Positions 29,365-51,873 of a stretch of DNA of 64,000 bases are shown one piece after another. Origin of the DNA: Psychromonas ingrahamii 37 (GTDB lineage Bacteria; Pseudomonadota; Gammaproteobacteria; Enterobacterales; Psychromonadaceae); NCBI RefSeq assembly GCF_000015285.1, contig NC_008709.1, positions 3,224,001 to 3,288,000 of the forward strand, read 5' to 3'. The position numbers and the translations under genes were made by a program. Numbering within the stretch: position 1 is the first letter of the stretch; each line of letters opens with the position of its first letter. The notes beneath the pieces are model-generated. The model was not told where the DNA came from. It made no database searches and saw only the letters and a program-made list of their open reading frames with translations.

Positions 29365-29640
29365 AAAGTAATCGATTATCATGGCGGTATTACCAAACGA
29401 GAAAACTGTCAATTAAGAACCTTGTTTATTCATGGGGCAAGATCATTAATGAACTGGTGCCACAAATATAACGACCGGTTTAACCTGTGGATCCAATCAT
29501 TAATGGAGACCAAACCCGCTTCAAAAGTGATTGTCGCATTAGCCAATAAATTAGCCCGAATGACGTGGGCAGTATTGGCAGAAAATAAAGATTTTAAAAT
29601 GCCCGGTTATGTTACTTCGATTCAAATAATAAGTGCATAA
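29365..29640 (+). pseudogene. IS110-family transposase, 3' fragment
   Basis: An open frame without its 5' part encodes HGGITKRENCQLRTLFIHGARS...NDRFNLWIQSLMETKPASKVIVALANKLARMTWAVL. This is the C-terminal Transposase_20 region of IS110-family transposases. Most of the gene (the DEDD domain) is missing, and the right side runs into the IS30 end at 29619, which supplies the final codons and stop. Confidence 0.75.
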
Positions 29641-30707
29641 CTTGAATAGGTAGAAAAAACGGTCAGCTGACTATATGCTAATCGCTTTTTCTCCGGCAAG
29701 AGATGCAACAATGAAAACATATAACCAACTGACCTACGAACAACGATGCCAGATTTATGCCTTAAAGAAAACAGGTTTGAGTCAAAATAAAATAGCAAAG
29801 CAACTAAGTGTTAGCCAATCAACGATTAGCAGGGAGTTGTCCCGTAATACAGGTAAGCGTGGTTATCGTATTCAGCAAGCTCAAATATCATCAGATAAGC
29901 GTCGATTAGCCGCTTGTAAAGCCATTAAAATGACAACAAGTCTCATTGAGTTAATTGACTCCAGAATTAAAGAAAAATGGAGTCCAGAGCAGATATCAGG
30001 CAGGCTTAGAGAGCAACAAAGCATCAATATTAGCCATGAAACCATTTATCAGCATGTTTGGTCAGATAAAAAAAGTGGCGGTAACTTATTCAAAAAATTA
30101 CGTAGGAAAGGAAAAATTTACCAAACACGCAATAAAGATAAGCAAGCAGGTAGAGGGTTTATAAAGAACCGCATAAGTATTGATGAGCGCCCACAAGTTG
30201 TTGATGATAAAAGCAGAATGGGTGATTGGGAAATCGACCTGGTTATTGGCAAAGGACACAGTGGCGCGTTGGTCACTATTGTAGAGCGGAAAACTAGCTT
30301 TACGGTGTCGACACGTGTAGATGACAAATCAGCGAAAACAGTCACAGCAGCGACCATTGCTTTGTTAAAACCGTTTGAAGATTCCGTAATAACGATCACT
30401 GCGGATAATGGTAAAGAATTTGCTTATCATGAAGAAATGACTGAGAGTTTGAAATGTGATGTGTATTTTGCAGATCCTTATTGTTCGTGGCAACGAGGAT
30501 TGAATGAAAACACCAATGGTCTATTACGACAATATTGGCAGAAATCAACAGACTTCAAAAAAGTATCGCAATCAGAAGTTCAAGATGTAATAGTCAAACT
30601 CAATGATAGACCAAGAAAAAAAATAAATTACAAAACGCCAGCCAAATTAATGGCTGAACATAGAGTGGCTATAGCCGCTTAGTGGTTATGCACTTCAAAG
30701 TTGAATC
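29619..30707 (+). mobile_element. IS30-family insertion sequence
   Basis: About 1.09 kb with terminal inverted repeats of 23 bp: left GATTCAA-N5-AAGTGCATAAC (29619-29641) and the reverse complement at 30685-30707, 19 of 23 positions matching. It encloses one transposase gene and has inserted into an IS110 remnant. Target duplication not identified with confidence. Confidence 0.8.
29711..30682 (+). CDS. IS30-family transposase
   Basis: 323 residues from the ATG at 29711. The N-terminal helix-turn-helix reads YNQLTYEQRCQIYALKKTGL then SQNKIAKQLSVSQSTISREL. The DDE core is GDWEIDLVIGK (first Asp), ITADNGKEF (second Asp) and LNENTNGLLRQYW (Glu). Length and motifs are complete, so the element may be active. 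A longer frame from 29675 has no better start. Confidence 0.92.
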   Translation: MKTYNQLTYEQRCQIYALKKTGLSQNKIAKQLSVSQSTISRELSRNTGKRGYRIQQAQISSDKRRLAACKAIKMTTSLIELIDSRIKEKWSPEQISGRLREQQSINISHETIYQHVWSDKKSGGNLFKKLRRKGKIYQTRNKDKQAGRGFIKNRISIDERPQVVDDKSRMGDWEIDLVIGKGHSGALVTIVERKTSFTVSTRVDDKSAKTVTAATIALLKPFEDSVITITADNGKEFAYHEEMTESLKCDVYFADPYCSWQRGLNENTNGLLRQYWQKSTDFKKVSQSEVQDVIVKLNDRPRKKINYKTPAKLMAEHRVAIAA

Positions 30708-30989
30708 TGCCTTATTTAAACCGATTGATTTTTAAAAAAAGGAGCCGGCCCAAGTGGCGTAATAGCAAATATGAATTAAAATGGTTTAGCTCTGGTGAAA
30801 CCTGTTCATGGACATCGGCCGTTACAGGCCAATTGGGTGCAAAGGACATTGGAGCGCTTGAATCTCATTAAGGCTCGGCCAAGGAGGATCATGAAAGAAG
30901 CCGGATATATGTAGATAGCAGTTTATTTCACGGCATTACCGTAAGGATTACGAGACAGAGTATTTTAACGATTTATTTAATTCAATTAT
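30708..30989. other. Spacer after IS30, unassigned
   Basis: About 280 nt rich in short dyads (CATCGGCCGTTACAGGCCAATTG). It may be the remainder of the IS110 element or another mobile-element remnant. No gene recognised. Confidence 0.35.
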
Positions 30990-31013
30990 TTGACAGATGT
31001 GGAGCGTCCATAT

Positions 31014-31247
31014 ATGTCCACAATTACTATGATAAAGACACTAAATTTATTTTATAGTCGCCTTTTTTCCTATTGGTTAGTAAGCCTAACCGTTGGTTTA
31101 GTTTTAGGAATCACTGACTGGATTATTCCAATAATTGGCGCTTATGGGTTTTGGGTAAGATTTATCACAGGCTTAACTACAGCGGCAATTTTACTTGATT
31201 GGTGGTTAAATATAATTCAAAAACGTGTGGCGAATAAATATATATAA
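31014..31247 (+). CDS. Small two-helix membrane protein, unknown
   Basis: 77 residues from ATG 31014, with a possible extra 8 residues if the upstream start at 30990 is used. Two hydrophobic stretches (SYWLVSLTVGLVLGITDWII and a second around ITGLTTAAILLDWWLN) and a basic end (QKRVANKYI). Unrecognised. It sits between the IS30 element and a tRNA pseudogene, so probably island cargo. Confidence 0.5.
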   Translation: MSTITMIKTLNLFYSRLFSYWLVSLTVGLVLGITDWIIPIIGAYGFWVRFITGLTTAAILLDWWLNIIQKRVANKYI

Positions 31248-31402
31248 GCAGCATAATAGAATATTTTATTAGCTTCTTGCTTTAAAAAAAGTAACTGAAC
31301 TTAATTTATGCCAGTTTAAGCAAAAGCACTTGCAAGCAAGACAGTTGAAAGCTAACATAGCTCAGTTGAATAATTCAAAGAATTATAAGTATAAATTCAA
31401 TT

Positions 31403-31480
31403 GTGCTCGCTTAGTTCAGTTGGTTAGAATACTTGCATGACATTAAGGTCTCACAAGGTTCAAGTCCCACAGCGGCACCA
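31403..31480 (+). pseudogene. tRNA pseudogene, tRNA-Val(GAC)-like
   Basis: Contains a clear D-arm (TTAGTTCAGTTGGTTAGAAT), a GAC-like anticodon loop (ATGACAT), a T-loop-like GGTTCAAGTCC and an encoded CCA. The acceptor stem pairs (GC.CGCT with AGCGGC) only if one T is skipped. The anticodon and T stems are broken, so it is unlikely to be functional. Such remnants often mark integration sites. Confidence 0.65.
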
Positions 31481-31739
31481 TATTAAACCCCCTAAAAGAA
31501 CCCGAAAAGCCTTTATTAATAATATGTTCGGTTTTTTATGCCTAAGGCTATTTTGTAGCAATATTTGAAAACTACACTTTTTGATAGTACTGCTAGTAGT
31601 ACCAGATCAAAATACAAGTAAGCGATACTACTAAAGTGACTAGAGACGTTAACCCCTTTACTAGTTAAATTAAGGGTACCCTTAAATCACATTCAGTTTT
31701 ATTTTGTTCAATATCAGATAAGGTTGTAAAGGCAGTGAA
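31481..31739. other. Spacer before the nucleotidyltransferase
   Basis: AT-rich, with the weak dyad AACCCGAA...TTCGGTTTTTT at about 31499-31538 that could act as a terminator for the upstream side. No gene. Confidence 0.35.
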
Positions 31740-32882
31740 GTGAATTATAACAAGAATATCAGCATTGAATTACAGACAGTAGCTTGGCTTAGCCTGCCTC
31801 AATTATCTATTGATGAAGTGTATGCTACGGCTTCCTTATTAAAAAAAGTAAATTTTGATCGCTTACAAACATTAATAATTCAGCATCGCACTCATCCCTG
31901 TATATACAATAATATCCGTCAACATTTTATTGAACAAGTGCCTTCTAAATTATTATTTTATTTAAAAAATCAGTATGTTAAAAACAAAAAAAGAAACACT
32001 ACACAACTAGGAATTTACGCTGAGTTAAACTATTTATTTCATGAAGAAAATATTCCAATACATTTTTTTAAAGGTTTATCCCTTTCTAAACTAATCTACT
32101 GTGATATTGCACTTAGAAATAATAATGATATCGACGTCCTAATTTCAAAATCTGACCTAGGCCAAGCCAATAGCATACTAAATAGTATGGGGTTCTACGC
32201 TCATGAGTTTGAGGCTTTAGATGATGAATGGCGAAATGAATATTTCAAAGTACATAAAGATATAGGTTATACCAATCAAGAAGGGCTATTAATAGAACTT
32301 CATCTCGAACTATCCATCCCTATCATCGATGAAATAAGTATTTATCAAAACAAACTCCAATATCGAGATAAGCTATTCCAAACAGATTTATCTGTTGATG
32401 AGTTGTTTTATCTCTGCTGGCACGGTTCACATACTCTATTCCATCGTTTAAAATGGTTAGTCGACATTAAGATTTATAGTGAACAGCTTGAAAATAATAT
32501 TGATGATAGCAGCTACTTCTCTGATAACAGTTGTCGCATTATTGTTTGCAGTTTGTACCTACTGGCAACGATCTATAAAAAGCCTCTGCCAGATAAAGCC
32601 AGTCTTTTTTATAAAAAAGACTGGCTTTGCCGAATGATGATTAAAACCTGTTTACAGGGACTAGACAATCCTGCTTATGTTAATTCAGGAACTTTTGCCA
32701 TTAAGCGCCATCTATTCGAAATTTTCGCCTTTAAAAGCTCTAAATACAAATTGGCCATGCTGTTATGTAAGTTGCACCCCTCTATTTTAGATTATTCAAG
32801 TGTTAATTCTTTATCGCCTAGATGGTTGTTCCTAATCTATCCTCTACGTCCATTTTTAGCCTTTAAACGTAAATTTTTATAA
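31740..32882 (+). CDS. NTP_transf_5-type nucleotidyltransferase
   Basis: 380 residues of the uncharacterised nucleotidyltransferase family (PF14907 type). The core is FFKGLSLSKLIYCD followed by LRNNNDIDVLI (D130 and D132 as metal-binding DxD), then a long helical C-terminus with YLCWHGSHTLFHRLKWLVDI. Relatives occur in lasso peptide clusters of the paeninodin type and in polysaccharide clusters. It starts at GTG 31740. Four nt before the Wzz-like gene and convergent with the lasso operon, so a role in either pathway is possible. Confidence 0.75.
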   Translation: MNYNKNISIELQTVAWLSLPQLSIDEVYATASLLKKVNFDRLQTLIIQHRTHPCIYNNIRQHFIEQVPSKLLFYLKNQYVKNKKRNTTQLGIYAELNYLFHEENIPIHFFKGLSLSKLIYCDIALRNNNDIDVLISKSDLGQANSILNSMGFYAHEFEALDDEWRNEYFKVHKDIGYTNQEGLLIELHLELSIPIIDEISIYQNKLQYRDKLFQTDLSVDELFYLCWHGSHTLFHRLKWLVDIKIYSEQLENNIDDSSYFSDNSCRIIVCSLYLLATIYKKPLPDKASLFYKKDWLCRMMIKTCLQGLDNPAYVNSGTFAIKRHLFEIFAFKSSKYKLAMLLCKLHPSILDYSSVNSLSPRWLFLIYPLRPFLAFKRKFL

Positions 32883-32885
32883 ATT

Positions 32886-33767
32886 ATGAAAATAACGCTA
32901 AGTTTTAAACTAATACGGATGGATTGGCTTAAGTTGCTATTGATACCTCTACTTTTGAGTGTTTTAGCTGTTTTTATAACAAATTTCTATCCTAAATACG
33001 AAGCTATGGCCACTATCTATCCTGTAGTCGACAGTGTCGGTGATTTAAATAAATCTGCTTTAAAAAAAATGGAAAGGAACGCTCGACGTTTAATGAAATC
33101 AATGTATCGACAAAAAAAAAGCAATAGCATAATCGCTGTTCATGAAAAGTTCGCTCGGCTAAAAAGCATACAACTAACCAAACAGTTTATTATAAAATAC
33201 GACCTGAAAAAGTTATTATTTGAAGATAAGTGGGATACCGAAAATCAACGTTGGCGTAATTCTAAGAATAAAGGTGAGCCATCTTTGGCAAAGGCAGCTA
33301 AAAATCTTAATAAACGTTTTAAAATAAAGTACACAAAAAAAAATAATTTAATTAATATTAAACTAGTTTGGAAAGATCCAGTTATTGCAGCACAGATAGT
33401 AAATGATTATATTTACTTTGCTAATAGCTATATTGCCGATGAGTTAAAGCGTATACAGCTAGATGAACTGTATAATTTGCAACGATTGATTATTGATAAC
33501 CGTTATATATATATACAACAAGAGTTAATTACACAGTACGAGGCGAAGCTGACATCAATGTATAGTTCTTTGTCTCGACAATTTAAAGTATTATCACCTG
33601 CCTACATAGCAGAAGAGCCTATATTTAAGTTCAGTCCTATTTTAATTGCTTTAGTGTTTCTACTTTCTGTATTTTGCGTGTTTTTATTTATACTTTTAGG
33701 TAAAGAATCAAACAAAAAATCTGAAATACAGTTTCCATTATCACTTGAGGCAACAGAAACGCCTTAA
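32886..33767 (+). CDS. Wzz/PCP-like chain-length determinant protein
   Basis: 293 residues with the Wzz layout: a membrane helix near the N-terminus (WLKLLLIPLLLSVLAVFITNF, about 14-34), a long helical periplasmic region rich in Lys/Arg, and a second helix near 250-273 (ILIALVFLLSVFCVFLFILL) followed by a short tail. No kinase domain. Such proteins set polysaccharide chain length, but no polymerase or glycosyltransferase is adjacent. Four nt after the nucleotidyltransferase gene. Confidence 0.65.
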   Translation: MKITLSFKLIRMDWLKLLLIPLLLSVLAVFITNFYPKYEAMATIYPVVDSVGDLNKSALKKMERNARRLMKSMYRQKKSNSIIAVHEKFARLKSIQLTKQFIIKYDLKKLLFEDKWDTENQRWRNSKNKGEPSLAKAAKNLNKRFKIKYTKKNNLINIKLVWKDPVIAAQIVNDYIYFANSYIADELKRIQLDELYNLQRLIIDNRYIYIQQELITQYEAKLTSMYSSLSRQFKVLSPAYIAEEPIFKFSPILIALVFLLSVFCVFLFILLGKESNKKSEIQFPLSLEATETP

Positions 33768-33935
33768 AATCATTAAAAAATAAACTATCTTAAAAGACTA
33801 AAATCAATTTAATTACCATTACTACAATTGATAACAACGTAAAACAAGTTTTGATAAATCAATCTATTTGTCACCAATTTAACATTATACGCTTGGATTA
33901 ACCCGAACCAATAACTTAGGTAAATAGAAAAAATA

Positions 33936-35123
33936 ATGGTAAGACTAATCAAAAAGATCTCCAGTCGGCTTAAACGTAAGTATATTTTTTCCCCTTTACC
34001 TTTATGTGTGCTTTTTCCAAATGCAGCTTGGCATCATAAAGCCTGCTGTTTTCGTTATTTCCCTCATTACACTTTTGTGATTAGTTTTTCATTACAAATA
34101 TTTTTAACCCTTATTTGGCCCTTACGATTATTATTCCAAGCCGTTTTTTGTTTTAAAAGATTTGGTAGGAAGGCAAGAGAGTTTTCGTCAAGACAGCCGT
34201 GGGGAATATTTATTGAGTCTATTTTCTATGGTTTATGGTTAGCGATGCCACCGAGACAATATTATCGCTATCAAATGTTTTCACATAAATACCCAGCCAA
34301 AAATTGGCTTTTAGATCATCAGATATTTGCCTTATTACCTTATATAAACAAACACATCGGTGATGAGCGGATCGCTAACAAAGCTAAATTTAACGTATTT
34401 TTCCAAGAGCAAGGCCTATCAACCCCCAAAACACTCTATTCAACAGAGTTAGTTAATCTATTAAGTTGGCCAGCATTCGTAATTAAAAGAAAACAAGGTA
34501 GTGGCGGTGAGGGATTTCAAGTCTGCACAAAAGTCGATAACACTTGGCGCTTAGAAGAGCATATAAAACACAATGAAACCGTAATAACACAACTAAGTAA
34601 TGTTAAATTATTACAGCATATAAAAAATCAAGAAAATAATAATATTTTTCAAGAGAAATTAGTTAATCATTCTAGTTTTAAGTTTGTTGATGCAAAGCAA
34701 TTAATTACTTTAAAGCTGATTAGTGTCAAACAAGATGATAAAAAAAACATGTATTGCAGGAATTTTATTTATTCCAAAGCAGCAAAAACTCAATAAGAAT
34801 AATGCTTTTATCGCTAATGTTAATATAAAAACGGGGGAGATAGGCTTACTTTTCAACCATAAGCCTTTACAACAAGTTGTTGAGTATTATCCAAAACCCA
34901 TTAAAGAGTAATAAATAATATTGTACCTATATTTAATGAAGCTAAACAACTTGCCACAAGTTGTCATGAACACTATTCAAAAAAATTACTAGCATTCGAT
35001 TTAGCCATAACAGCGTACCAAGTATTTTTATTAGAAATTAATTTAGTATTTGATATCGCTGGTCATCAAATAACTCAGCAAAAACTTACAAATATATTTT
35101 CAAACGTTACGAACCGACTTTAG
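33936..35123 (+). pseudogene. Sugar-transfer-associated ATP-grasp protein, two frameshifts
   Basis: First frame 33936-34796: helical N-terminus and the ATP-grasp N-lobe (WPAFVIKRKQGSGGEGFQV). At the A8 run 34740-34747 homology shifts to +1, giving GILFIPKQQKLNKNNAFIANVNIKTGEIGLL up to 34911. A second shift near 34905-34912 restores NIVPIFNEAKQLATSCHEHYS and the catalytic end LAITAYQVFLLEINLVFDI, stopping at 35121-35123. The intact protein would be about 390 residues (PF14397-like). One extra A and one further indel explain it. The end overlaps the convergent lasso precursor. Confidence 0.8.
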
Positions 35124-35271
35124 AAGAAGCAAGTTCATCACTGCTAACGCTTCCTCCTTGGGTCTGACTTACATCTAACTTGCTTAGGCTAGGCACTTGC
35201 CATTCAGCTTTATTTTCTACCAAAGTATTATTTTTAGAATTACTCACTGTTTTTTCTATCTTATCTGACAT
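35107..35271 (-). CDS. Lasso peptide precursor (A protein)
   Basis: 54 residues. The leader (1-38) contains the RRE recognition element W24-Q-V-P27-S-L29-S-K-L32-D and has Thr at position -2 (T37-Q38), the hallmark of lasso leaders. The predicted core is GGSVSSDELASSKVGS (39-54): Gly1 as macrolactam donor and Glu8 (or Asp7) as acceptor, with an 8- or 7-residue tail and a C-terminal Ser. AAGGAAATAATT precedes the ATG. It lies 26 nt after the cyclase gene, last in the operon. The core lacks large aromatic plugs, so threading is not guaranteed. Confidence 0.85.
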   Translation of the reverse strand: MSDKIEKTVSNSKNNTLVENKAEWQVPSLSKLDVSQTQGGSVSSDELASSKVGS

Positions 35272-35297
35272 AATTATTTCCTTTTAGGTTTTTTTAA

Positions 35298-37217
35298 TTA
35301 ACTTTCATTATCTCGTGATAATTTATTAAGCTGCAAAGCAACTAATCTAAATAATGTTTTATTTTTAATATCATCGCGCTTTGCCAAATTTTCCTGCAAT
35401 GATAATATCAATTGCTCAATAATATCGCTATCAATATATTGACAAAGTAATTTATTATTTGCCGTTGTCATTAAACGACGAATAATAATGTCTTGATCAT
35501 ACATAATACGCAACCTTGATGTAGGCACAGTTGCACCTGATTTATCATGTCGTAAGCGAATATCATCAGGTAATATATCTTGAGTAGCTTTCCTGATCAT
35601 ATTACGTTTAATACCATTGTGTACTTTTATATGTGCGGGTAAAGCTAGACAAAACTGCAACAAACGAACATCTAATAACGGATACCGGTAATCAACACCG
35701 TAACTTGCGGCACCAACAGCTGAATCTTCAAGGCGATATAATACATGCGCTGACTCTATTACTTTTAGCTCTTGCTGTTTTACCGTACCAGAGGTATCGC
35801 GTGTTGGGTGTTCAAAATATCTATCTGGATAGCCCTTTTTTTTTGCAAACATATCATTAATGCCACAGGATTTTTGAAGTATTTTCCAGTCAGAAATAAA
35901 AAAATTAAACTTTCGATATGAAAAATATGTGCGTTGTATTGCTCCTAAACAAAACTTTAATCTTTTAAGAGGATTACACGTAAAATACTTAGCTTGTCGC
36001 CATAACGTTTGCCATTGCTTTTTTTGTACTAATTCAATATCCCAACCATTACCTTGTGATGTCACTAATTGATCGCCACCAAAACCAGATAATAAGCTAC
36101 GGTAACCTTGCCCTTGCATAGCGCCAAATAACTCTTTACCAAACTGTGATAAATCACTACGACATGGTCCTGCATGAACACAATCTGAATATATTAATTC
36201 ATCTATGATACCAACTTCTTCACTATGAATAGCATGGCCCTGTATATTAGGATAAAGACTAAGCAGTAAATCAATATACTCTCCTTCATCTTTAAAAGGA
36301 AAAACGTTACCTTGATACTGTTTCGCTAAGCGATGTGAGTATGCATGAATATTTTTCTTATTTGAGTTTGGTGGTAAATGGTCATTTAATAGTATTGCAG
36401 CAATTGATGCTATAGAGGTTGAATCTAAACCACCACTTAATTCTGACGCTATTTCGCCATAGCAACGTAAACGACACTTCACCGCTTCAAACAATAAACA
36501 CTTAAATTCAGCAATATATTCATCGTCCGTTTTTTCAGTTAACGTGTGTGTAATATCCAAACGCCAGTATTGTTGATAATGAACTTTTTGATCTATTAAC
36601 TGTAAACAAGATGCTGGCGGAAATGAGTTAATCTCCTGATAAAAACTACTATGATGTTCTACTTTTGTAATAGTAATATAATCAGCTAACCACTGTTCGT
36701 TGATGGTTTTATCTATATAAGGTAACGCTACTAATGCCGGCTTATTGGAAGCAAAAGCAATAAAGTCATTGGTTTCAGTAATAAAAAGTGGGCGGACACC
36801 TAAATGATCACGGGCAATCAATAATTGATATTTTTCAGGTTGATAAATAACAAAGACGAAATCCCCTAGCAAATGCTGGCAAAGTTTATCTTGATATTGC
36901 TTATAAGCTGATAAAACGAGCATTTCATCGCTTAATTCGGGTGATATTTTCACGCCCAATTTATTGGCTAATGCCTCTCTATTATCTAATCGGCCATCAA
37001 ATAACAAATAAAATTTATCCAATTGGTTAATGGGTTTCGCATATTGCGCTTCGGGGGTATTAAGCCGTTGTTGACAGGAAAATATAGCTTGGGCGAACTC
37101 AATGCTACCACTAACATCATAAGGAAAAGGTTTACTGGCTTGTTGCATTAAGCCCAACCATTCCGGCTGAATAGTTACATCATTATGTTTAGCAATTACA
37201 CCTAATAACGTACTCAT
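35298..37217 (-). CDS. Lasso cyclase, asparagine-synthetase-like (C protein)
   Basis: 639 residues: an N-terminal Ntn-type glutaminase-like domain (1-220) without the catalytic Cys2 (it starts MSTLLG), then an AsnB domain with the PPi-loop SGGLDST (about 265-271) that adenylates the ring acceptor. Other landmarks are YRYPLLDVRLLQF and RHDKSGATVPTSRL. Absence of Cys2 fits lasso cyclases, which do not use glutamine. The start codon abuts the stop of the sulfotransferase gene, implying translational coupling. Confidence 0.85.
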   Translation of the reverse strand: MSTLLGVIAKHNDVTIQPEWLGLMQQASKPFPYDVSGSIEFAQAIFSCQQRLNTPEAQYAKPINQLDKFYLLFDGRLDNREALANKLGVKISPELSDEMLVLSAYKQYQDKLCQHLLGDFVFVIYQPEKYQLLIARDHLGVRPLFITETNDFIAFASNKPALVALPYIDKTINEQWLADYITITKVEHHSSFYQEINSFPPASCLQLIDQKVHYQQYWRLDITHTLTEKTDDEYIAEFKCLLFEAVKCRLRCYGEIASELSGGLDSTSIASIAAILLNDHLPPNSNKKNIHAYSHRLAKQYQGNVFPFKDEGEYIDLLLSLYPNIQGHAIHSEEVGIIDELIYSDCVHAGPCRSDLSQFGKELFGAMQGQGYRSLLSGFGGDQLVTSQGNGWDIELVQKKQWQTLWRQAKYFTCNPLKRLKFCLGAIQRTYFSYRKFNFFISDWKILQKSCGINDMFAKKKGYPDRYFEHPTRDTSGTVKQQELKVIESAHVLYRLEDSAVGAASYGVDYRYPLLDVRLLQFCLALPAHIKVHNGIKRNMIRKATQDILPDDIRLRHDKSGATVPTSRLRIMYDQDIIIRRLMTTANNKLLCQYIDSDIIEQLILSLQENLAKRDDIKNKTLFRLVALQLNKLSRDNES

Positions 37218-38177
37218 TTAATCAATCTCTGTGCGTGTGGTTAACATAGCTTTATTAAACTCTTGATATTTTATGAATAGGTAATTGATTAATTTATAGT
37301 TATTTTGCAAAAAAACATCAACAGTTTCACTTTTAACTTGAATATATTTTTGACTTTTCCATTGCCCTTTTTTTGATGACCAAGTTTGCTGCCATTGACT
37401 ATTTAAATCTTCTTGTACCTCTGAGGGTTTAAAAAAATTAATGATATCACTAAAATTATTAGCTAAATCGCTATACTCGCATAAAAAGCTTTGCTGACAA
37501 AAATGTGTTTGCATTACAGCTAATGACGATAAATAAATACGGCTGGCTTCAGTAGTGTATTCGTGGTGATGCTCAACTAATTCTTTAGGGAGAGTTGCCA
37601 GCTTTTTACGCCAAATCGGGTTTTTAATATATGACGTTGGCTTTCGTGTTAGCGATTCAATTACCGCACTTGGCTCTCTATATAAAAACAATACCTTAAG
37701 TTGAGGGAAATCGTGCTTAATTCTTTGTAAATAAAAAATAGTGCCACTAGTAAACTTGATAATAAGTTGTTTACTTTGATGACAGGCCCAATGATTCCAT
37801 AACTTTAATGACTCTTTCGCCACTAAACTTCCCAGCTGCTCAGGAATAATGCTGTGTTCTTTATAGATAGCGCCTAAAAAACCAGGTTCACCTAACACCA
37901 AAAATTGTTTGCTGGCTTTTAAATTTTGACATAATAAAGTAGAGCCACAACGAGACACATGAAAAATACTACCAATAGACGTTAATTGATAAGTATTACT
38001 TTTTAACGTTGCTAACCAAGCGTTTAATTCTAAAATTTTATCCGGCTGACCACCATTTATATCATTAATGGTGTCACGAAAAAATCCATAGCTTAAATCT
38101 AATTTATTTGCATCAATGAAATGCACTAAAATAAACGGGCCTGCTTGCACAAACTTAAAAGGAACGAAAAAACTCAC
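37218..38177 (-). CDS. Sulfotransferase-like protein
   Basis: 319 residues. The 5'-phosphosulfate-binding loop FHVSRCGSTLL lies at 72-82, and a 3'-phosphate-binding-like VLFLYREPSAVIESLTRKP segment lies around 170-188. This is the layout of PAPS-dependent sulfotransferases. It probably starts at GTG (38175-38177) with AGG upstream. Lying inside the lasso operon, 9 nt after the oxygenase, it may sulfate the peptide, although members of this fold may also have other roles. Confidence 0.7.
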   Translation of the reverse strand: MSFFVPFKFVQAGPFILVHFIDANKLDLSYGFFRDTINDINGGQPDKILELNAWLATLKSNTYQLTSIGSIFHVSRCGSTLLCQNLKASKQFLVLGEPGFLGAIYKEHSIIPEQLGSLVAKESLKLWNHWACHQSKQLIIKFTSGTIFYLQRIKHDFPQLKVLFLYREPSAVIESLTRKPTSYIKNPIWRKKLATLPKELVEHHHEYTTEASRIYLSSLAVMQTHFCQQSFLCEYSDLANNFSDIINFFKPSEVQEDLNSQWQQTWSSKKGQWKSQKYIQVKSETVDVFLQNNYKLINYLFIKYQEFNKAMLTTRTEID

Positions 38178-38186
38178 TATAAATAC

Positions 38187-39086
38187 CTACTCAAAACGAA
38201 TATGGCCAGCAACAGCCATACGCCCATTAGAAAATTGATTATCCGCTAACAACGTTGGTGTTACCGCATGATAAAAACAGCTTGGAAATGCTACAAAACG
38301 ATTATTGATAGGTTCTATTTTTGTAAACTTATGCGTGTAATACTCTTGTTGTTGAATGTTGCTATCAAAAGCCAGTAGTTCACCACCTTTAAATGCTTTA
38401 GGCACTTGATGATAATAATAAAGCCAAGAAATCACGCGTTTAGTATCGCCAAACATTGCTTTATTATCAGCATGTGGCTGAAAAAACCCCCCATTTAAAT
38501 GATTCGTTAATTTAATTTCACTTTTAGCGTAATTAAAATCAGGAATATTTAATAATGTTTTGAAGTGATTAAGATTATTCCCTACAAAGTCAAGAAAGTG
38601 TGCTTTAAATTCCCCAAGCTCAAAAGAAACATGAGTTAAACGTTTATCCGGAACGTAATACGGATTATCTGAACCTACATTCGCCATGCGAAATTTATTT
38701 TCATTCTCAAGCGTATGAGATAATAAATCAGATAAGAAAGCGGGTGATAGAAAATCATCAATCACTACGAGAGGAGTATTTGAGAAGTTATTCGGTTTAA
38801 TTTCATCTACATTAAAGTATTTAGTAACGGAAGATAGTTTTTGAGCTGCTTTAATCATGTCATCACTAATAAAGTGACCAGATAAGCTAGCAAGCTTTTG
38901 CTGAGTAGCAAACGCTTCATTAAGCAATCCTGCTTTTTTTAAAAGTTCTAATTGTAATCTTAACAAATCAAGATCGTTAGGCACTTTACTGAGCTTTACT
39001 TCTAATCCAGCTAATAACCCTAAGTTGAGTTGAGAACTACTTAACTGTGATAGCTTTTGATAGGTATTTTTAGTTGCTTCTTCCAT
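38187..39086 (-). CDS. 2OG-Fe(II) oxygenase (prolyl-4-hydroxylase type)
   Basis: 299 residues. A helical N-terminal part (1-90), then a double-stranded beta-helix domain with iron ligands H205 and D207 (FFQPHADNK), H273 (FYHAVTP) and the 2-oxoglutarate Arg R289 (SNGRMAVAGH). Complete catalytic set. In the lasso operon, the natural guess is hydroxylation of a core residue (for example beta-hydroxylation of Asp7), but the site is not determinable from sequence. Confidence 0.8.
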   Translation of the reverse strand: MEEATKNTYQKLSQLSSSQLNLGLLAGLEVKLSKVPNDLDLLRLQLELLKKAGLLNEAFATQQKLASLSGHFISDDMIKAAQKLSSVTKYFNVDEIKPNNFSNTPLVVIDDFLSPAFLSDLLSHTLENENKFRMANVGSDNPYYVPDKRLTHVSFELGEFKAHFLDFVGNNLNHFKTLLNIPDFNYAKSEIKLTNHLNGGFFQPHADNKAMFGDTKRVISWLYYYHQVPKAFKGGELLAFDSNIQQQEYYTHKFTKIEPINNRFVAFPSCFYHAVTPTLLADNQFSNGRMAVAGHIRFE

Positions 39087-39103
39087 TACTTGCTATACAA
39101 CCA

Positions 39104-39391
39104 CTAAGTTATTTTTATCAAGCTTTCTTGCTTTAATGTGTTTAAAAATGCCAACGTTTGTTGCTGACAATCTTCTAACTCAACTTCAAATTGTGCTAAC
39201 AATTTTTCAACAATAATAAAAACCGGTTGAGCTTCACTAATTACTGACCAAATAGCTGAAGCTTGAGCATTTAAATTAATATAGTCACCACTGGTAATTG
39301 ACATTAGTACCATTTCATTATCAACAGTACAGTCAAGTACATTTTCAGCACGAGATATAACAGAGTTTAACGTTAAAATATTATTATTCAT
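39104..39391 (-). CDS. PqqD-like RRE protein (lasso B1)
   Basis: 95 residues. The PqqD/RRE fold is visible as beta strands VLMSITSGDYINLNAQASAIWSVI followed by helices with LLAQFEVELEDCQQQTLAFLNTL. It corresponds to the stand-alone B1 of split-B lasso systems and binds the precursor leader. Seventeen nt upstream of the oxygenase start, 35 nt after the kinase stop. Confidence 0.8.
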   Translation of the reverse strand: MNNNILTLNSVISRAENVLDCTVDNEMVLMSITSGDYINLNAQASAIWSVISEAQPVFIIVEKLLAQFEVELEDCQQQTLAFLNTLKQESLIKIT

Positions 39392-39426
39392 TTATTACCA
39401 CTATTCAGTTATTAATTTATTATTAG

Positions 39427-40317
39427 CTAAGTAAGTTGCTGAATAATTAATTCCGCTACTTGTTTTAAGCTGTTAGTTAATTGAGGCCTCGTTATTTGCG
39501 TAACAGGTACTAAATCAACTAAAGCTGCGCATGCTTGAAAGTTACCCTGTGCTTGTTCTAAAGTAAAATATTTTTTTCGGTAACTATGTATTTTTAATAC
39601 ACCCAGCTGCTCAAATACCGTTAATGAATTAATTTTTGCCAATTCAATATCACTTAGCTGGAGGTTAATAATATGTGTTATTTTTTTTGGCCTATTACAA
39701 AAATTGTTATTAATTGGAATACGGTACTTATCAAGCTCATCACGAACACGGTGAAAATTTTTGTATTCAATAGAAAGCTTTTCAGCCGCATCTTGCCATA
39801 ACTTACTTTGTGGGTAAGCTGGTGTAACAAAAGCATCCCCATCAAGAAAGTCTATTACCGCTAAATCATCACTGAGTAATTGAAAGCCTTGCTGAATTAA
39901 TGCATTCGCCGTTGTTGATTTTCCTGCGCCTGATTGACCACATAATAAAATAGTATGGTCACACTTTGTAAAAGCACTTGCATGTAATGTTAAACGTTGA
40001 CGCTGATGCTGGATAGCACCTAAAGCACTTCCTAATAAAAATAGCTTAATAATATCTAAGGAGGTGTTTTCTTCTGGCTCTATTGTTATGGTTTCGCCAT
40101 TCTCTATTAAATATTTTCCAGCATCGGGTATTTTCAGTAAAACTTGATTTTTATTAACTTGCCATTTTAATTTTTGTTTTTCGATAATCGATAAATCATT
40201 TGCTATATGGCCATAATCAATAACAACATCTGCTTGCTGAGGTATCGCTTCAATTAATTCACTACAGACAAAAGGTGTAGAAATAACAAGATCAAAAATA
40301 CGGTAATAATGAATCAT
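39427..40317 (-). CDS. HprK-like serine kinase of lasso clusters (K)
   Basis: 296 residues related to the C-terminal kinase domain of HPr kinase. H112 in LTLHASAF, Walker A GQSGAGKST (127-135) and DD at 150-151 (LLSDDLAVID) are present. Stand-alone copies in lasso clusters (paeninodin PadeK) phosphorylate the C-terminal Ser of the precursor; here the precursor does end in Ser. HprK phosphorylase activity and the HPr substrate itself are not implied. Confidence 0.8.
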   Translation of the reverse strand: MIHYYRIFDLVISTPFVCSELIEAIPQQADVVIDYGHIANDLSIIEKQKLKWQVNKNQVLLKIPDAGKYLIENGETITIEPEENTSLDIIKLFLLGSALGAIQHQRQRLTLHASAFTKCDHTILLCGQSGAGKSTTANALIQQGFQLLSDDLAVIDFLDGDAFVTPAYPQSKLWQDAAEKLSIEYKNFHRVRDELDKYRIPINNNFCNRPKKITHIINLQLSDIELAKINSLTVFEQLGVLKIHSYRKKYFTLEQAQGNFQACAALVDLVPVTQITRPQLTNSLKQVAELIIQQLT

Positions 40318-40331
40318 AATTGAAAACCAGC

Positions 40332-42026
40332 TTATAAATGCAATGTATGGTCAGCACAGGCTTGTGTTGACTCTCGATGAGCAATAATAATCATGGTAGT
40401 TTGCCCTTTTAGTGCCCTTAAGGCTTGTTGAATTTTTTTCTCATTCTCAAGATCTAATGCACTTGTTGCTTCATCTAATATTAACAGTTTTGGATTTGTC
40501 AACAATGCTCTCGCTAGTGCTAATCTTTGCCTTTCACCGCCAGATAATCGAACACCACGATCGCCAATAATACTATCTAAACCCAGCGGCAAATTTTCAA
40601 CAAAATCTTTTGCTGCAGCAAGTTCAAGCTTTTTCCATATTTCAGTATCAGAAAAAACACCACTACTTACCCAAGATAAATTAGCTCGAATGGTATCATT
40701 AAATAAATAAACATCTTGAGTTATATAGGCTATATTTTTGCGCCAAGCTTTACAGTTATCCCCACTTAATGTTTGTTCATCAATTTGAATACTACCTTTT
40801 TGTGGTAGTAATAAACCCGTAATAATATCAGCTAACGTGGTTTTACCTCGGCCTGACTGAGCAACAAAAGCCCAAGTTTCATTTTTATTAATAATAAGGT
40901 CCAGATTTACAATAATATTTTCGATTTTATCAGGGTAATGAAAACTAACTTTTTTTAGTTGAATTTTATTTTCAAATGCCATATCGCTCACCAACGAAAT
41001 AGCAGTACTCTCTTGCGCTTTAATACATGCATTAAACATTTGTTCAATATCATTAAAGGCTGGCACTTTATGTATGAGTCTTTGATAATTACTTTGAATA
41101 GCAATAACCTGCGGTAGCAATCTACTGTAAAGTAATAACAACGCAAATAAAGCACTTACTTCTATTAGTTGAGAACCAAAATAAAAAAACACACTAAAAG
41201 AAATCACGGTAATAATTAAATACAGCCATTGAGTTAATGCATTTACCGTAGCAACTTCTATTTGTTGTTGTTCTAATTGACTGCTTGTGAAAGATAATTT
41301 GTCACTATAATTAGATTCTACGCCATAGCTCTTGATCATTTTCAAGCTTGCTAACTGCTCGTTAACCATTTGAAATATTTGTTTGTAATTCACTAACTCA
41401 AGCTTTCCTGAGTTAAAAAGCTTTTTATTAAAAGGTAATAAAGCAAGGTAGATAATCGTCGTAAATAGGAATACCGAAATAGTTAACTCCCAAGAAACAA
41501 AGAGTGCAAAGAAAAAAAGTATACCCACTAAAATAAATTGACTTAATAAGTTCATAATCAAACTTGCCGATTGCCCCATAGCTTGCACTTGCATTGTCAA
41601 TGTATGAATAAAGTCAGTCATTTTGTGCTGAATAATAAATTCCCATTTAGCATTCAATAACGAATGGTATAAACCACTTCTTAAATGTCTAATATAACCA
41701 TGCTGTAATCGTACCGTTAGGCGTGATAATTGAAATTTTATTGTTGCAATAATACTGACTATCACAACATAGCTCACCAAAACATTAATCAGATTTAGTT
41801 CAATCGTTAATGTATTAAAAGCCTGCTCAAGATATAAAATAATTGCATTAGTTGATGATGCCTCACCATAAATCCCCAATACCTCCAATAATGGAATGAT
41901 CAATAAGATTCCTATTCCACTAGAAATACCTTGTACAACCATTAAAACTAAAGCAATGCATTGTAGTTTAGGCGCGAAAAACCAATATTGTTTAAAAAGG
42001 GATAAAAGGATGGAAAATTGAGTCAT
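40332..42026 (-). CDS. ABC exporter for lasso peptide (D)
   Basis: 564 residues with a six-helix membrane domain (about 15-300) and a nucleotide-binding domain: Walker A-type AQSGRGKTT (first Gly replaced by Ala), Q-loop TQDVYLFNDTI, signature LSGGERQRLALARALL and Walker B LLILDEATSALD. It resembles lasso McjD exporters and the multidrug family. One nt after B2, so coupled to it. It likely exports the mature lasso peptide and gives self-protection. Confidence 0.85.
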   Translation of the reverse strand: MTQFSILLSLFKQYWFFAPKLQCIALVLMVVQGISSGIGILLIIPLLEVLGIYGEASSTNAIILYLEQAFNTLTIELNLINVLVSYVVIVSIIATIKFQLSRLTVRLQHGYIRHLRSGLYHSLLNAKWEFIIQHKMTDFIHTLTMQVQAMGQSASLIMNLLSQFILVGILFFFALFVSWELTISVFLFTTIIYLALLPFNKKLFNSGKLELVNYKQIFQMVNEQLASLKMIKSYGVESNYSDKLSFTSSQLEQQQIEVATVNALTQWLYLIITVISFSVFFYFGSQLIEVSALFALLLLYSRLLPQVIAIQSNYQRLIHKVPAFNDIEQMFNACIKAQESTAISLVSDMAFENKIQLKKVSFHYPDKIENIIVNLDLIINKNETWAFVAQSGRGKTTLADIITGLLLPQKGSIQIDEQTLSGDNCKAWRKNIAYITQDVYLFNDTIRANLSWVSSGVFSDTEIWKKLELAAAKDFVENLPLGLDSIIGDRGVRLSGGERQRLALARALLTNPKLLILDEATSALDLENEKKIQQALRALKGQTTMIIIAHRESTQACADHTLHL

Positions 42027-42027
42027 G

Positions 42028-42504
42028 TTAATGGTTAATTAATGGGGAAATATAAGTATTGATAATAGTAAATTTTTTATGGCCTTTGGCTCCGGTTATT
42101 ATTTTATCACCAACAAGGCTCCATGCATGTGCTTTTAATAGCTCTTTGGAATCATTTTGCTTTAAAACCCCCAAATAAATAACATATGGTATCTGATAAT
42201 AACGATATAACGATGCGGCCAACATAGCTTGAATTAAGCACTTAGATTCCCATGGGGAATACCTTTCAACTAATCGGGTGATTTGACCTATTTCAGGTAA
42301 GTAGTGTAATTGATTGTCCTTAATTACACTACAGCATTGTAAATTCGAAAATTGCTTACCTAAAATGGAAGATAATAAATGAAATGGGAGAAATAAAAGG
42401 CAAAACCGAAGTAAACCACTATAAAGAAGTAAAATTAAAAACCAACACTTTTGTCGTGAAGATAAAGTACAAAATGTTGAAAATTTATTTTTAATGGAAA
42501 ACAT
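42028..42504 (-). CDS. Lasso leader peptidase, transglutaminase-like (B2)
   Basis: 158 residues with N-terminal hydrophobic stretch (20-48) and a transglutaminase-like catalytic C89 (SPWESKCLIQAML), H126 (KAHAWSLVGD) and acidic D133. This is the B2 protease that removes the leader once B1 presents it. First gene of the operon, about 180 nt upstream of the IS982 remnant on the opposite strand. Confidence 0.85.
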   Translation of the reverse strand: MFSIKNKFSTFCTLSSRQKCWFLILLLYSGLLRFCLLFLPFHLLSSILGKQFSNLQCCSVIKDNQLHYLPEIGQITRLVERYSPWESKCLIQAMLAASLYRYYQIPYVIYLGVLKQNDSKELLKAHAWSLVGDKIITGAKGHKKFTIINTYISPLINH

Positions 42505-42543
42505 AAAAAGACTCTGAATAAGATTAACTTAGTGACCAAGATG

Positions 42544-42557
42544 ATTATCATGATAAT
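42544..42557. promoter_or_regulatory. Perfect palindrome ATTATCATGATAAT before the lasso operon
   Basis: A 14-bp perfect dyad, 40 nt upstream of the B2 start codon. It could be an operator controlling the cluster. It shares GATAAT hexamers with Fur sites but in a different arrangement. Confidence 0.4.
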
Positions 42558-42686
42558 TGAATAGTGCGTCTAGTTATTTTTAATATATTAACGCCATGCG
42601 CAACTTTTAAAATGAGAAAAATATTGAAAAGGCATGATCTAACCTTATTTTGTTATCGCCAAACAACAAATAAAGCGAATAAGATC

Positions 42687-43230
42687 ATGCCATTAAAAGA
42701 GTTTATCATTTGGGTTTATTGTTGGATATATGAAAATGTTGCCAAATTTCTCGGAAATGAAAAATTAAGAAGTAGAGGTTTTAAGCCTGCCTTAAGTGAT
42801 ATTGAAGTTATTACGATGAAAATTGAGGGAGAATTTCTTTCACATGATACGGACAAGGCTATTTGGACGTATTTTAAAACACACTAATTATCATTATTTC
42901 CGAAGCTTACTTCCCGTTCAAGTTTTACTAAGCAAGCGTCAAATATTTGGCATGTACAACAGTTGCTTCAGGGCAAATTAAATGAGCAAGTAGCATGAAT
43001 ACTCAATGTTTTATTGTCGATGCTTTTCCTATGAGCACAGCTCATTTTAAAGTAGAAAATAAAAATAATAACTTTAAAGGTGAGGCTGGTTATGGGTTCT
43101 ACGCAAGTAAATCAGAAACTTATATGGATTTAAAGGGCATTTACTTGTTGATGATGCTGGCAATATTGCGAGTTTCACACTAACCAGAAGCATCTGGGAA
43201 TTAAAGAGAGCCGGTTTGGGAATTAGTTAA
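42687..43230 (+). pseudogene. IS982-family transposase remnant
   Basis: Fragments in several frames read LKEFIIWVYCW...LGNEKLRSRGFKPALSDIEVITMKIEGEFL, then DAFPMSTAHFKVENK, and finally VDDAGNIASFTLTRSIWELKRAGLGIS. This is the IS982 order. Total length (544 bp) is well below a full transposase gene of about 870 bp, so there are deletions and frameshifts. Confidence 0.75.
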
Positions 43231-43309
43231 AAATCAACAACCACCTACCAAAGTGGGTGGGTTAGCGTTTATGGACTGAGGTCCGGATACGAGTCAAAGA
43301 CCCGTTTTT

Positions 43310-43620
43310 TTACTGCTCAGTTCTAAAATTATCATCGACTTTTGGCTCAAAATGATGGGCTAAATACTCTTTAATCATTTCTTCAGTAACATCTCCAGAT
43401 ATGACACAAAAATATCCTCTAGACCAAAAATGACGTCCCCAGTATCGCTTTTTAAGTCGGGGGAACTTTCATGATGATCTCCCCTTCACCCTTCTCATTA
43501 TTTCACTTGGTGCCATATTAGGAGGGGCTGAAACCAAAAAATGAACATGATCTTTGCTAATGACTCCTTGTAAAACTTGATACCTATATTTAGTAACAAA
43601 AAAAATAATACTGAATCTTA
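43310..43620 (-). pseudogene. IS200/IS605-family TnpA remnant
   Basis: Minus-strand reading gives FVTKYRYQVLQG, then KDHVHFLVSAPPNMAPSEIMRRVKGEI, FWSRGYFCVISGDVTEEMIKEYLAHHF and FRTEQ-stop. That is the Y1 transposase of IS200/IS605 with the HUH motif as HVH and an internal deletion plus frameshift. Dead copy. Confidence 0.75.
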
Positions 43621-43740
43621 AAAACCGTATGGCTACCATATCGATAATCCATTCCCATCTCCCTTAACCGAATACCTATTAAAATATTATAGCTAAAGCT
43701 GACCGACTAAAGCCGATGGTTTTAACCTTTTCAGGTGACG

Positions 43741-43927
43741 AATAAAAAGAAGCTGATTTGGTAGGCCAATTGCTGTTCACCAACAAAAAAAGGTCCGTAC
43801 CCAGCACCCCATCCAGTGAATTAATGATCATATCAAGCATTGCTTTCTAGAACCTTACCACTAAAAAGGCCTAAACTGCACAATAAGGTTGCTTGAACTT
43901 GAGAATAACAAAAGGCGGGAGAACAAA
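43741..43927. repeat. Right copy of the split direct duplication bounding the island
   Basis: 43741-43821 matches 28814-28895 and 43816-43927 matches 29177-29288, in the same orientation with about a dozen differences. The join is at the heptamer AGTGAAT present at both ends of the missing 288 bp. Confidence 0.85.
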
Positions 43928-43945
43928 AGCTGGAAGGTAAAAGGA

Positions 43946-44929
43946 TTAATATTTCAAACCAATAACCTCTCTAACGCGGTCTAACGTTTCTATCAGGTTT
44001 CGGCTAAAATTAAAGGTCATAATATCACTTTCAGTTTTTTGTTGACGTAACAGCCCATTAAAATGAGTTATTTCATGGTTATAGCCCTGTGTTTTGCAGT
44101 CAAAATTTCTGTTTTCCTGGGTTGTACCATTAATTAGAGTGACCGTTGACGGGCTATGAAAATCGCGGTTAATTTTAATAGTGCCCTGCTCGCAATGGAA
44201 CAGCGCTTCACCGGGTGTCGCTTCCAACAATGTCGATTTTAATAATGCGGTCGAGCCATTGTTATAGTTAAATGTCATGGCGCAGGAGGAATCTGCCCCG
44301 TTATCAAAAAAGGTCGCATCAGCTGTTATGCTATCCGGCACGCCAAGTGTCGAAAGTGCCGCAAATATTGGGTAGATACCGATATCTAAAAGACTGCCTC
44401 CGCCCAGTGATTTGTTAAACAGCCGGGATTGACCGTCGAATTCTTTTATAAAACCAAAATCTGCTTCTATTTTAAGGAGCTTGCCATAGGTTTGGTTATT
44501 TAACGCGGTTAATACAAACTGATAATGCGGCAGAAAATAGGTCCAAAGCGCTTCCATCAACAACACATTATTTTTTTGTGCAACGGCAATCATGCTGTTC
44601 ACTTGTTCAGCATTCATAGCCAAAGGTTTTTCGCATAACACCGCGATCCCCTTATCTAAACATAAGAGTGCATGTTTTTTATGCTCTGAATGGGGGGTTG
44701 CTATATAAACAGCATCAATATTTGCGTCATTGACTAAAGCTTCGTAGCTTCCATAGGCTTTAGTTGCCTGATGCTTTTGCGCAAAGGCTCGCGCTTTTTG
44801 CTCGGTTCTTGAGGCGACGGCATATAACTCTGCGCCCTTAACCGTTAATAAATCACGCGCGAATGTATCGGCTATATTACCTAAGCCGATAATTCCCCAG
44901 CGAATATTCCTATTTTTCAGTGAGTTCAT
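43946..44929 (-). CDS. Gfo/Idh/MocA-family oxidoreductase
   Basis: 327 residues. N-terminal NAD(P)-binding Rossmann start IRWGIIGLGNIADTFARDL, CEKPLAMNAEQV with the conserved EKP lysine (about 101-103), and a C-terminal beta domain containing GGGSLLDIGIYPI. Members act on sugars and inositols; here the substrate is unknown. Seventeen nt after the aldo/keto reductase gene and presumably cotranscribed with it. Confidence 0.85.
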   Translation of the reverse strand: MNSLKNRNIRWGIIGLGNIADTFARDLLTVKGAELYAVASRTEQKARAFAQKHQATKAYGSYEALVNDANIDAVYIATPHSEHKKHALLCLDKGIAVLCEKPLAMNAEQVNSMIAVAQKNNVLLMEALWTYFLPHYQFVLTALNNQTYGKLLKIEADFGFIKEFDGQSRLFNKSLGGGSLLDIGIYPIFAALSTLGVPDSITADATFFDNGADSSCAMTFNYNNGSTALLKSTLLEATPGEALFHCEQGTIKINRDFHSPSTVTLINGTTQENRNFDCKTQGYNHEITHFNGLLRQQKTESDIMTFNFSRNLIETLDRVREVIGLKY

Positions 44930-51183: not shown

Positions 51184-51873
51184 TTACGAATCCACACATC
51201 GAGAAGAAAGACTACTTTTGACAAAGCTTCTAAAGATATTTCTATGCTCCTTTAAATAAAGAAGATATTCAGGATGCCACTGAACGCCTAACAAAAAGGG
51301 ATAATCTTTTTTTTCTATCGCTTCTATTATTGTGTCATCTGTTGCAGAAACCTTTAAATTTTCACCGACCTCTTTTATAGCTTGATTATGTATGCTGTTT
51401 GCAACAATTTCCTTGTGTTGAACTATTGTAAAAAGTTTTGAAAATATTTTTACAACTACCTTTTTTATGGGAAAAATAGAATTTTTATGTATTATATACT
51501 CATCAATATCTAATATCGTAGGATACAAACTTCCCTTAAAATAAATATTTATAAGTTGAGCTCCTCTACAAATACCTAAAATAGGTATCTTTTTTTTGTA
51601 AGCTTTATCTATCATTTCAAGTTCAAAACAATCTCTTTTCTTATCTAGCGAAGTATTATGGGCATCTTTTTCGCCACCATACAGTATAGGATCTATGTCA
51701 TTTCCCCCACTTAAAAGTAATGCATCAAGTTCGTCAAAATCTATATTATCCAAAGAAGGTCTTAGGCTAATCCATTTCGCTTTTTGCATGTATAAATTCA
51801 ACCTGATAAAAATATAAGCAAAAATATTACCCTTATCAGGAAGACATATTCCAACTAATGGCTTTTTATCCAT
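51184..51873 (-). CDS. Class I glutamine-amidotransferase-like (peptidase C26 / GGH type) protein
   Basis: 229 residues from the ATG at 51871-51873 (AGGATGG upstream; a TTG 21 nt earlier is possible). ALLLSGGNDIDP, the nucleophile elbow GICRGAQL and the catalytic His in GVQWHPEYL are complete. It is related to gamma-glutamyl-GABA hydrolase PuuD. It overlaps the amidoligase gene, so the two are translated together and may form and break gamma-glutamyl or similar amide bonds. Confidence 0.82.
   Translation of the reverse strand: MDKKPLVGICLPDKGNIFAYIFIRLNLYMQKAKWISLRPSLDNIDFDELDALLLSGGNDIDPILYGGEKDAHNTSLDKKRDCFELEMIDKAYKKKIPILGICRGAQLINIYFKGSLYPTILDIDEYIIHKNSIFPIKKVVVKIFSKLFTIVQHKEIVANSIHNQAIKEVGENLKVSATDDTIIEAIEKKDYPFLLGVQWHPEYLLYLKEHRNIFRSFVKSSLSSRCVDS

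Follow-up and report, generated by a model that had tools for sequence, protein, structure and literature searches.

Lasso peptides are assembled by B1, B2 and C, a division of labor that is established for the family. Clusters in which B1 and B2 are separate genes (split-B clusters) are already well known. Their products can be phosphorylated, hydroxylated, methylated, acetylated or glycosylated, among other changes, and multiply modified examples exist (PMC8498205, PMC9266682, PMC10368454 and PMC13381572 among others; statements about published systems refer to passages of the cited papers). The paeninodin-type clusters (PadeK/ThcoK; SyanK from Sphingobium yanoikuyae; pseudomycoidin with PsmK/PsmN) combine split B1/B2, C, the exporter D, an HprK-like kinase and a C-terminal Ser (PMC8498205, PMC9266682). 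PadeK, ThcoK and SyanK phosphorylate that Ser, and proteobacterial members of this kinase type are capable of polyphosphorylating it on their own (PMC8498205, PMC9266682). Tailoring of the linear precursor has been reported for PadeK, SyanK and the hydroxylase CanE (PMC8498205, PMC9266682), and B1 aids both CanE and BsfK (PMC9266682, PMC10368454). Here we describe an eight-gene operon in a 64,000-nucleotide stretch of Psychromonas ingrahamii 37 (NC_008709.1, positions 3,224,001 to 3,288,000, forward strand; hereafter the window). The operon has the same elements, and its rare part is the set of tailoring enzymes. The host, probably a marine, cold-adapted bacterium, has a genome of one contig of 4,559,598 bases.

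An eight-gene split-B lasso operon

The operon runs on the minus strand from 42504 to 35107, and its open reading frames (ORFs) are all open without internal stops. The genes, with the family, structure or motif on which each assignment rests, are as follows (ABC, ATP-binding cassette; RRE, RiPP recognition element, where RiPP is a ribosomally synthesized and post-translationally modified peptide; 2OG, 2-oxoglutarate).

42028..42504, minus: B2, lasso leader peptidase (transglutaminase-like); PF13471, NF033537
40332..42026, minus: D, ABC exporter (membrane and ATPase domains); PF00664, PF00005
39427..40317, minus: HprK-like tailoring kinase; PF07475, TIGR04352, predicted model against 1kkl
39104..39391, minus: B1, PqqD-type leader-binding protein (RRE); PF05402, NF033536
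38187..39086, minus: 2OG-Fe(II) oxygenase, prolyl-4-hydroxylase-like; PF13640, PDB 6t8m
37218..38177, minus: sulfotransferase-fold protein (ST), GTG start; PF13469 below cut-off, predicted model
35298..37217, minus: C, macrolactam synthetase of the AsnB type with Ser2; PF00733, NF033535
35107..35271, minus: A, lasso precursor of 54 amino acids, last gene of the operon; NF033524 below cut-off, motifs

From B2 to the precursor gene the intergenic gaps are 1, 14, 35, 17, 9, 0 and 26 nucleotides (nt). A first-pass annotation of the window had listed eight packed minus-strand genes with gaps of 0–35 nt, and ORFs were found at those places and on that strand with matching gaps. Its family assignments agree with Pfam and NCBIfam (PF13471, PF00005/PF00664, PF07475, PF05402, PF13640 and PF00733, with ST weak by PF13469), and the cyclase that it described as lacking Cys2 has Ser at residue 2. 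In the hidden Markov model searches that it had proposed as a check, B1, B2 and C group with lasso families, and none of the eight genes is disrupted. Its account of the eight genes thus holds. It did not mention the low G+C of the surroundings or a nucleotidyltransferase that is probably a further partner, both described below.

B2 scores 87 bits against PF13471 (1e-24) and 65 bits against the curated model NF033537 (lasso_biosyn_B2), where it passes the cut-off of 33. Cys89 and His126 are present in 10 of the 10 true B2 proteins of our alignment, the window's and nine others. An eleventh row, from locus L071, turned out to be PqqD extended out of frame and was rejected. A phmmer search of PDB sequences with B2 gave no match. 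B1 matches PF05402 at 57.3 bits (cut-off 23.4), as expected of a PqqD-type RRE, and the narrower lasso PqqD model NF033536 at 72.7 bits, where the cut-off of 80 is not reached. For C, a score of 97.7 bits against PF00733 (cut-off 21) supports a macrolactam synthetase, and the SGGLDS loop is visible; its top NCBIfam match is the lasso cyclase NF033535 at 330 bits, short of the cut-off of 525. The exporter matches PF00664 and PF00005 above cut-off and contains AQSGRGKT and LSGGERQ, whose roles we presume. The chance that A, B1, B2 and C share one tightly spaced operon by accident is very small. Judged from its genes, the locus is an intact, complete split-B lasso cluster, and we infer that its product is a modified, exported lasso peptide.

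By E-value, the best plasmid match of C is an AsnB-type gene of Halopiger that adjoins PqqD and annotated lasso B2 genes (28% identity over 79%). On this archaeal plasmid, Halopiger xanaduensis pHALXA01 (L155), ABC transporter, PqqD, annotated lasso B2, AsnB-type and nucleotidyltransferase genes lie together, likely a lasso cluster in a haloarchaeon.

The precursor and its proposed core

The precursor has the leader motif WQVPSL, which is YxxPxL-like, and a leader end of ...WQVPSLSKLDVSQTQ, followed by G1, D7/E8 and a C-terminal Ser; Thr stands at position −2. An AAGGA resembling a ribosome-binding site lies upstream of its ATG. Because it scores 21.9 bits against the paeninodin family NF033524, under the cut-off of 27, we do not file it under that family. 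A precursor search of plasmids returned no match.

The neighborhoods of C, B1 or B2 in 22 sources were scanned with a regular expression, and 20 precursors were retained after selection by eye. The pattern itself required an acid at about core positions 6–9, and therefore only the position of the acid is informative. W..P is present in all 20, with Trp in place of Tyr in the leader motif each time. Thr occurs at Pro+11 in 11 of the 20 and was taken as T(-2); the acid (Asp or Glu) of these 11 is at core 8 in nine (L032, L067, L069, L070a, L071a, L071b, L072, L094, L115) and at core 9 in two (L054, L100). In the window precursor Thr is at Pro+10, with D7 and E8 downstream. Since the core-8 acid prevails in related precursors and the window has D7/E8, the comparison suggests the core GGSVSSDELASSKVGS with a Gly1–Glu8 ring and a C-terminal Ser; a Gly1–Asp7 ring is the alternative. 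The core holds six Ser, including Ser3 and Ser16, and no Tyr or Thr. A C-terminal Ser is found in 18 of the 20 precursors, the exceptions being L032 (Gly) and L071b (Val). In locus L072, which carries both kinase and ST, the proposed core AGGRVVADADPNRAS has a single hydroxyl residue, Ser15.

The predicted tailoring enzymes

The kinase scores 32.5 bits against PF07475, just below the cut-off of 33.3, and 48.5 bits against TIGR04352 (cut-off 200). An AlphaFold model (15 sequences; predicted local distance difference test score, pLDDT, 88.5) retrieved HprK/P structures first, with 1kkl at E 3e-6, and residues H112, K133, D150 and D151 are present. An HprK-like kinase beside a precursor that ends in Ser is the paeninodin-type feature. 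The oxygenase matches PF13640 at 45.5 bits (cut-off 27) and PDB 6t8m, a prolyl 4-hydroxylase, at 1e-7. H205, H273 and R289 are invariant in an alignment of four sequences, and the HxD motif with D207 is common to L070 and L117. PF13640 and HxD...H...R together are what is expected of an Fe(II)/2OG hydroxylase.

ST reaches 21.5 bits against PF13469, where the gathering score is 27. Its predicted model (51 sequences, pLDDT 86.9) matched tyrosylprotein sulfotransferases best (E 1e-5, template modeling score, TM, ~0.4), and among the lower matches other sulfotransferases were mixed with nucleotide kinases. The ST family profile found two PDB chains weakly (0.006 and 0.018), the first being 2zq5, sulfotransferase STF1; phmmer with ST found no match among PDB sequences. 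Across the 51 sequences HxxRCGST and R167 are invariant and S175 nearly so. We take these to be residues of the site for 3'-phosphoadenosine-5'-phosphosulfate (PAPS), and with the fold they identify ST as a candidate sulfotransferase. In the predicted model, ST is closest to protein-sulfating enzymes. Searched by itself against genome contigs, the ST protein retrieved no relative; ST occurs in 1 of 148 related genomes, its own.

On an Eleftheria terrae plasmid (L154), a 2OG-Fe(II) oxygenase gene is followed 14 nt on by a sulfotransferase gene; none of the annotations in the 12.6 kb examined is for a lasso gene. This shows that 2OG–sulfotransferase pairs also exist where no lasso cluster is visible.

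Rarity of the combination

Two samples of loci were used. The ST-selected sample comprised 80 loci plus those from other searches. The B2-selected sample comprised 54, namely 40 of the G530 family (about every third listed) and 14 gammaproteobacterial, which are all those listed except the window's own. Profile construction used trimmed seeds and was restricted to aligned domains; the oxygenase profiles, with one to three seeds each, can miss members.

ST lies within 10 kb of C in 20 loci, of which 18 are distinct with the window included (L066 and L070 are the same place, as are L054 and L139). Fourteen of the 18 have HprK, and six of those have an oxygenase match, the same six by clean profiles: the window (2OG), L070 (2OG and JmjC), and L032, L069, L071 and L072 (JmjC). 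The JmjC assignment comes from PF08007 for the L066/L070 protein and from a custom profile for the others. The five relatives belong to Aerophototrophica, Sphingomonas, Azospirillum (two) and Tistrella. B2 and an ABC exporter are also present in only the window and L072, within the stretches examined, some of which are short (11 kb for L069, 12 kb for L032). Partial sets occur as well: L117, a 5.6-kb contig, carries 2OG, B2, B1 and ST, and L067 combines C, ST and B1 with a different type of 2OG gene and has no kinase match. In L071 (Sphingomonas sp. R647), a 21-kb stretch holds two each of C, HprK and B1, along with a pair of neighboring precursor-like ORFs, and has no B2 match, which suggests a double cluster.

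Among the 54 B2-selected loci, HprK is near B2 in 18 (13/40 of the G530 family and 5/14 gammaproteobacterial), the window's ST family in one and the 2OG profile in two. HprK occurs with any sulfotransferase in five and with an oxygenase in one; none has all three. Eleven high-scoring kinase matches did not satisfy a strict kinase motif; of the 12 kinase domains in those 11 loci, 10 have a glycine/lysine P-loop where it is expected or, for two of them, directly behind the matched segment, and that of L173 was not seen. Lasso B2 itself is found in 107 of 249 genomes of the G530 family (taken as sphingomonad) versus 14 of 350 in the window's class. The set of kinase, oxygenase and sulfotransferase in one lasso operon is rare. 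The first-pass annotation had called it unusual, and so it is, though not unique.

Proposed pathway and alternative readings

We consider it likely that the operon was horizontally acquired and that its product is a tailored lasso peptide, made and exported by the following steps. B1 would bind the precursor leader via the W..P.L motif. While the precursor is still linear, a Ser, most likely the C-terminal Ser16, would be phosphorylated by the HprK-like kinase and a core residue hydroxylated by the 2OG-Fe(II) oxygenase. ST would transfer sulfate from PAPS to a core hydroxyl, which may be a Ser or a hydroxyl made by the oxygenase, because the core has six Ser and neither Tyr nor Thr. B2 would then cleave after TQ, and C would activate the Glu8 side chain with ATP and join it to Gly1, giving an 8-residue ring round the tail. 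The ABC protein would export the peptide, and the nearby nucleotidyltransferase may add to the phosphate. The L072 core, with one hydroxyl despite the presence of kinase and ST, favors sulfation of a hydroxyl installed by the oxygenase, or else the use of one Ser by both enzymes. A more specific form of this scheme is possible, though we hold it only tentatively: the oxygenase-made hydroxyl would be sulfated in a peptide that also bears a phosphorylated Ser, itself perhaps substituted further, which would amount to a hydroxylase–sulfotransferase relay common to the scattered alphaproteobacterial relatives.

Several observations weigh against the proposed pathway. C, B1 and the precursor all score under the curated NCBIfam cut-offs, the kinase and ST are both under theirs in Pfam, and the TM-score of the ST model is just ~0.4. 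Scans for promoters and terminators gave no more than shuffled sequence did. Similar 2OG genes lie near B2 without this ST family in L173 and L206, so the oxygenase and ST need not act together. Two precursors without a C-terminal Ser, L032 and L071b, come from kinase loci, and all three ST loci without an HprK match (L067, L094, L115) end in Ser. The C-terminal Ser thus does not track the kinase, and as proof of kinase action it is weakened by the Ser-ending loci that have none. One alternative places the phosphate on Ser3, within the ring, and leaves the other steps unchanged. Ser3 is the residue phosphorylated by BsfK (PMC10368454) and LppK (PMC13381572), and both the window core and L032 have it. 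However, of the six other kinase-locus precursors with a core-8 acid, four (L069, L070a, L071a, L072) have Gly3 and a last Ser, while the remaining two, L071b (Glu3) and L032 (Ser3), do not end in Ser. We regard Ser3 as an unlikely target. That ST and the kinase instead share the C-terminal Ser, which would be sulfated where ST is alone and perhaps bear a mixed sulfo-phospho group elsewhere, would fit the Ser kept in L067, L094 and L115 and the sole hydroxyl of the L072 core, its C-terminal Ser. Such sharing has no precedent in the passages of the lasso literature cited here, however, and in Proteobacteria a kinase of this type can by itself polyphosphorylate the Ser (PMC8498205, PMC9266682); we find it improbable.

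ST, the oxygenase or both might only share the operon and have another substrate: a Collar protein, a small molecule or a glycan of the cell surface. ST relatives lie within 8 kb of Collar genes more often (34/80) than of C (12/80) in the ST-selected loci, and the Eleftheria terrae pair stands outside a visible lasso cluster. In the window, however, both genes are flanked by B1 and C, and the gaps are 17, 9 and 0 nt. Counting this one, 18 distinct loci have ST no more than 10 kb from C, and the Collar pair of the window lies 19 kb away, beyond the low-G+C stretch. We regard a non-lasso target as rather unlikely. The cluster could also be silent, or its product unthreaded or otherwise a different RiPP. 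The precursor gene is last, no promoter rises above chance, several lasso models are under cut-off, and the operon lies in a low-G+C stretch amid transposase genes, in a genus where 1 of 24 genomes, its own, has B2 above cut-off and one further match is weak. Against this stand eight open frames, the AAGGA before the precursor and the retained key residues, and we see little prospect that this reading is correct. Taken together, the evidence leads us to prefer a tailored and exported lasso peptide as the product.

Neighboring genes and genomic setting

Three plus-strand genes lie beyond the precursor, and transposase-related sequences were found by domain search on either side.

31740..32882, plus: NTP_transf_5 nucleotidyltransferase, convergent with the operon; PF14907, 172.7 bits
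32886..33767, plus: membrane protein, weakly chain-length-determinant-like, membership doubtful; TIGR03017 14.8 bits, no Pfam match
33936..34911, plus: ATP-grasp gene (ATPgrasp_ST), apparently disrupted close to its 3' end, doubtful as a member; PF14397, 34.4 bits for 33936–34793
29675–30682: transposase with HTH_38 and rve domains
43469–43639: IS200-like Y1_Tnp fragment

The nucleotidyltransferase of 31740–32882 is a probable extra tailoring enzyme of the cluster, judging by its company elsewhere. Among the 54 B2-selected loci, 8 of the 18 that bear HprK have an NTP_transf_5 gene no more than 7 kb from B2, versus 2 of 36 others (Fisher p 0.001, kinship uncorrected), and with the stricter kinase motif in 4/8 versus 6/46 (p 0.03). 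The gene is in the same low-G+C stretch as the operon, and we take PsmN to be another PF14907 member. The two genes that follow it look more like surface polysaccharide genes than lasso genes; the ATP-grasp gene continues as a second ORF in another frame, at 34723–34911.

G+C content at 30–44 kb is 0.316–0.354 per 2-kb step and 0.338–0.477 in the rest of the window, where two further low steps lie at 52–54 kb and 60–62 kb. Over 31740–42504 it is 0.326, against 0.402 for the window outside 29600–43950. Lasso B2 is above cut-off in 1 of 24 genomes of the genus, the window's own, with one more match below cut-off. Recent horizontal acquisition is probably the simplest reading of this setting.

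Phage tail Collar genes, often in pairs or triplets, stand beside ST family members in the 34 ST-selected loci counted above; loci with Collar genes include L050, L054, L072, L095, L100, L105, L118, L123, L128, L158, L160, L178 and L211. In the B2-selected sample they are near B2 in 5 of 54 loci, that is, 5 of 18 with an HprK match versus 0 of 36 without. The window has a pair with the Collar domain (PF07484) at 15123–15722 and 15736–16374, on the minus strand. Membership of these genes in the cluster is unsupported, given their 19-kb distance and their position outside the low-G+C stretch. Elsewhere on the minus strand, two adjoining ORFs at 17682–19275 are possibly one broken gene, presumably two parts of a PhoD-like phosphatase. 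The overlapping pair at 51184–52853 resembles a hydrolase of the class I amidotransferase type together with a protein similar to amidoligases.

Comparison with known lasso systems

In the open-licence literature of PubMed Central, among the matches listed and in the passages cited, we found neither a sulfated lasso peptide, also judging by titles and abstract openings, nor a cluster with kinase, oxygenase and sulfotransferase; these are weak absences, as subscription papers and supplements lie outside that scope. Sulfation of the product, if it occurs, would by the literature covered add a new lasso modification, and the compact operon with its one short precursor makes this directly testable. 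If the pathway is true, it would also be an example of one B1 serving several enzymes on one linear precursor.

In Firmicutes, lasso clusters with a putative sulfotransferase gene have been described (Zhu et al. 2016, cited in PMC8498205), the one mention of such a gene in the passages cited; there the gene is at the cluster start, and the citing passage gives no product or activity. The canucin cluster likewise has an Fe/2OG enzyme, the lasso hydroxylase CanE, separate B1 and B2, and a precursor as the likely substrate (PMC9266682). However, CanE hydroxylates a C-terminal Asp, which is absent from the window core, and a kinase or sulfotransferase is not mentioned for canucin in the passages cited (PMC9266682). 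A further close counterpart is L072, from Aerophototrophica crusticola MIMtkB3, with ABC, B1, B2, ST, HprK, C and oxygenase genes and a C-terminal Ser; its core has Asp8. Unlike the window, it has a JmjC-type oxygenase, three Collar genes follow, and its precursor gene is on the strand opposite C. Pseudomycoidin shares the nucleotidyltransferase partner with the window (PMC8498205, PMC9266682). In comparison with the paeninodin type as a whole, the operon adds a 2OG oxygenase and a sulfotransferase, places its precursor gene last, and has a precursor that scores 21.9 bits against the 27 of the model.

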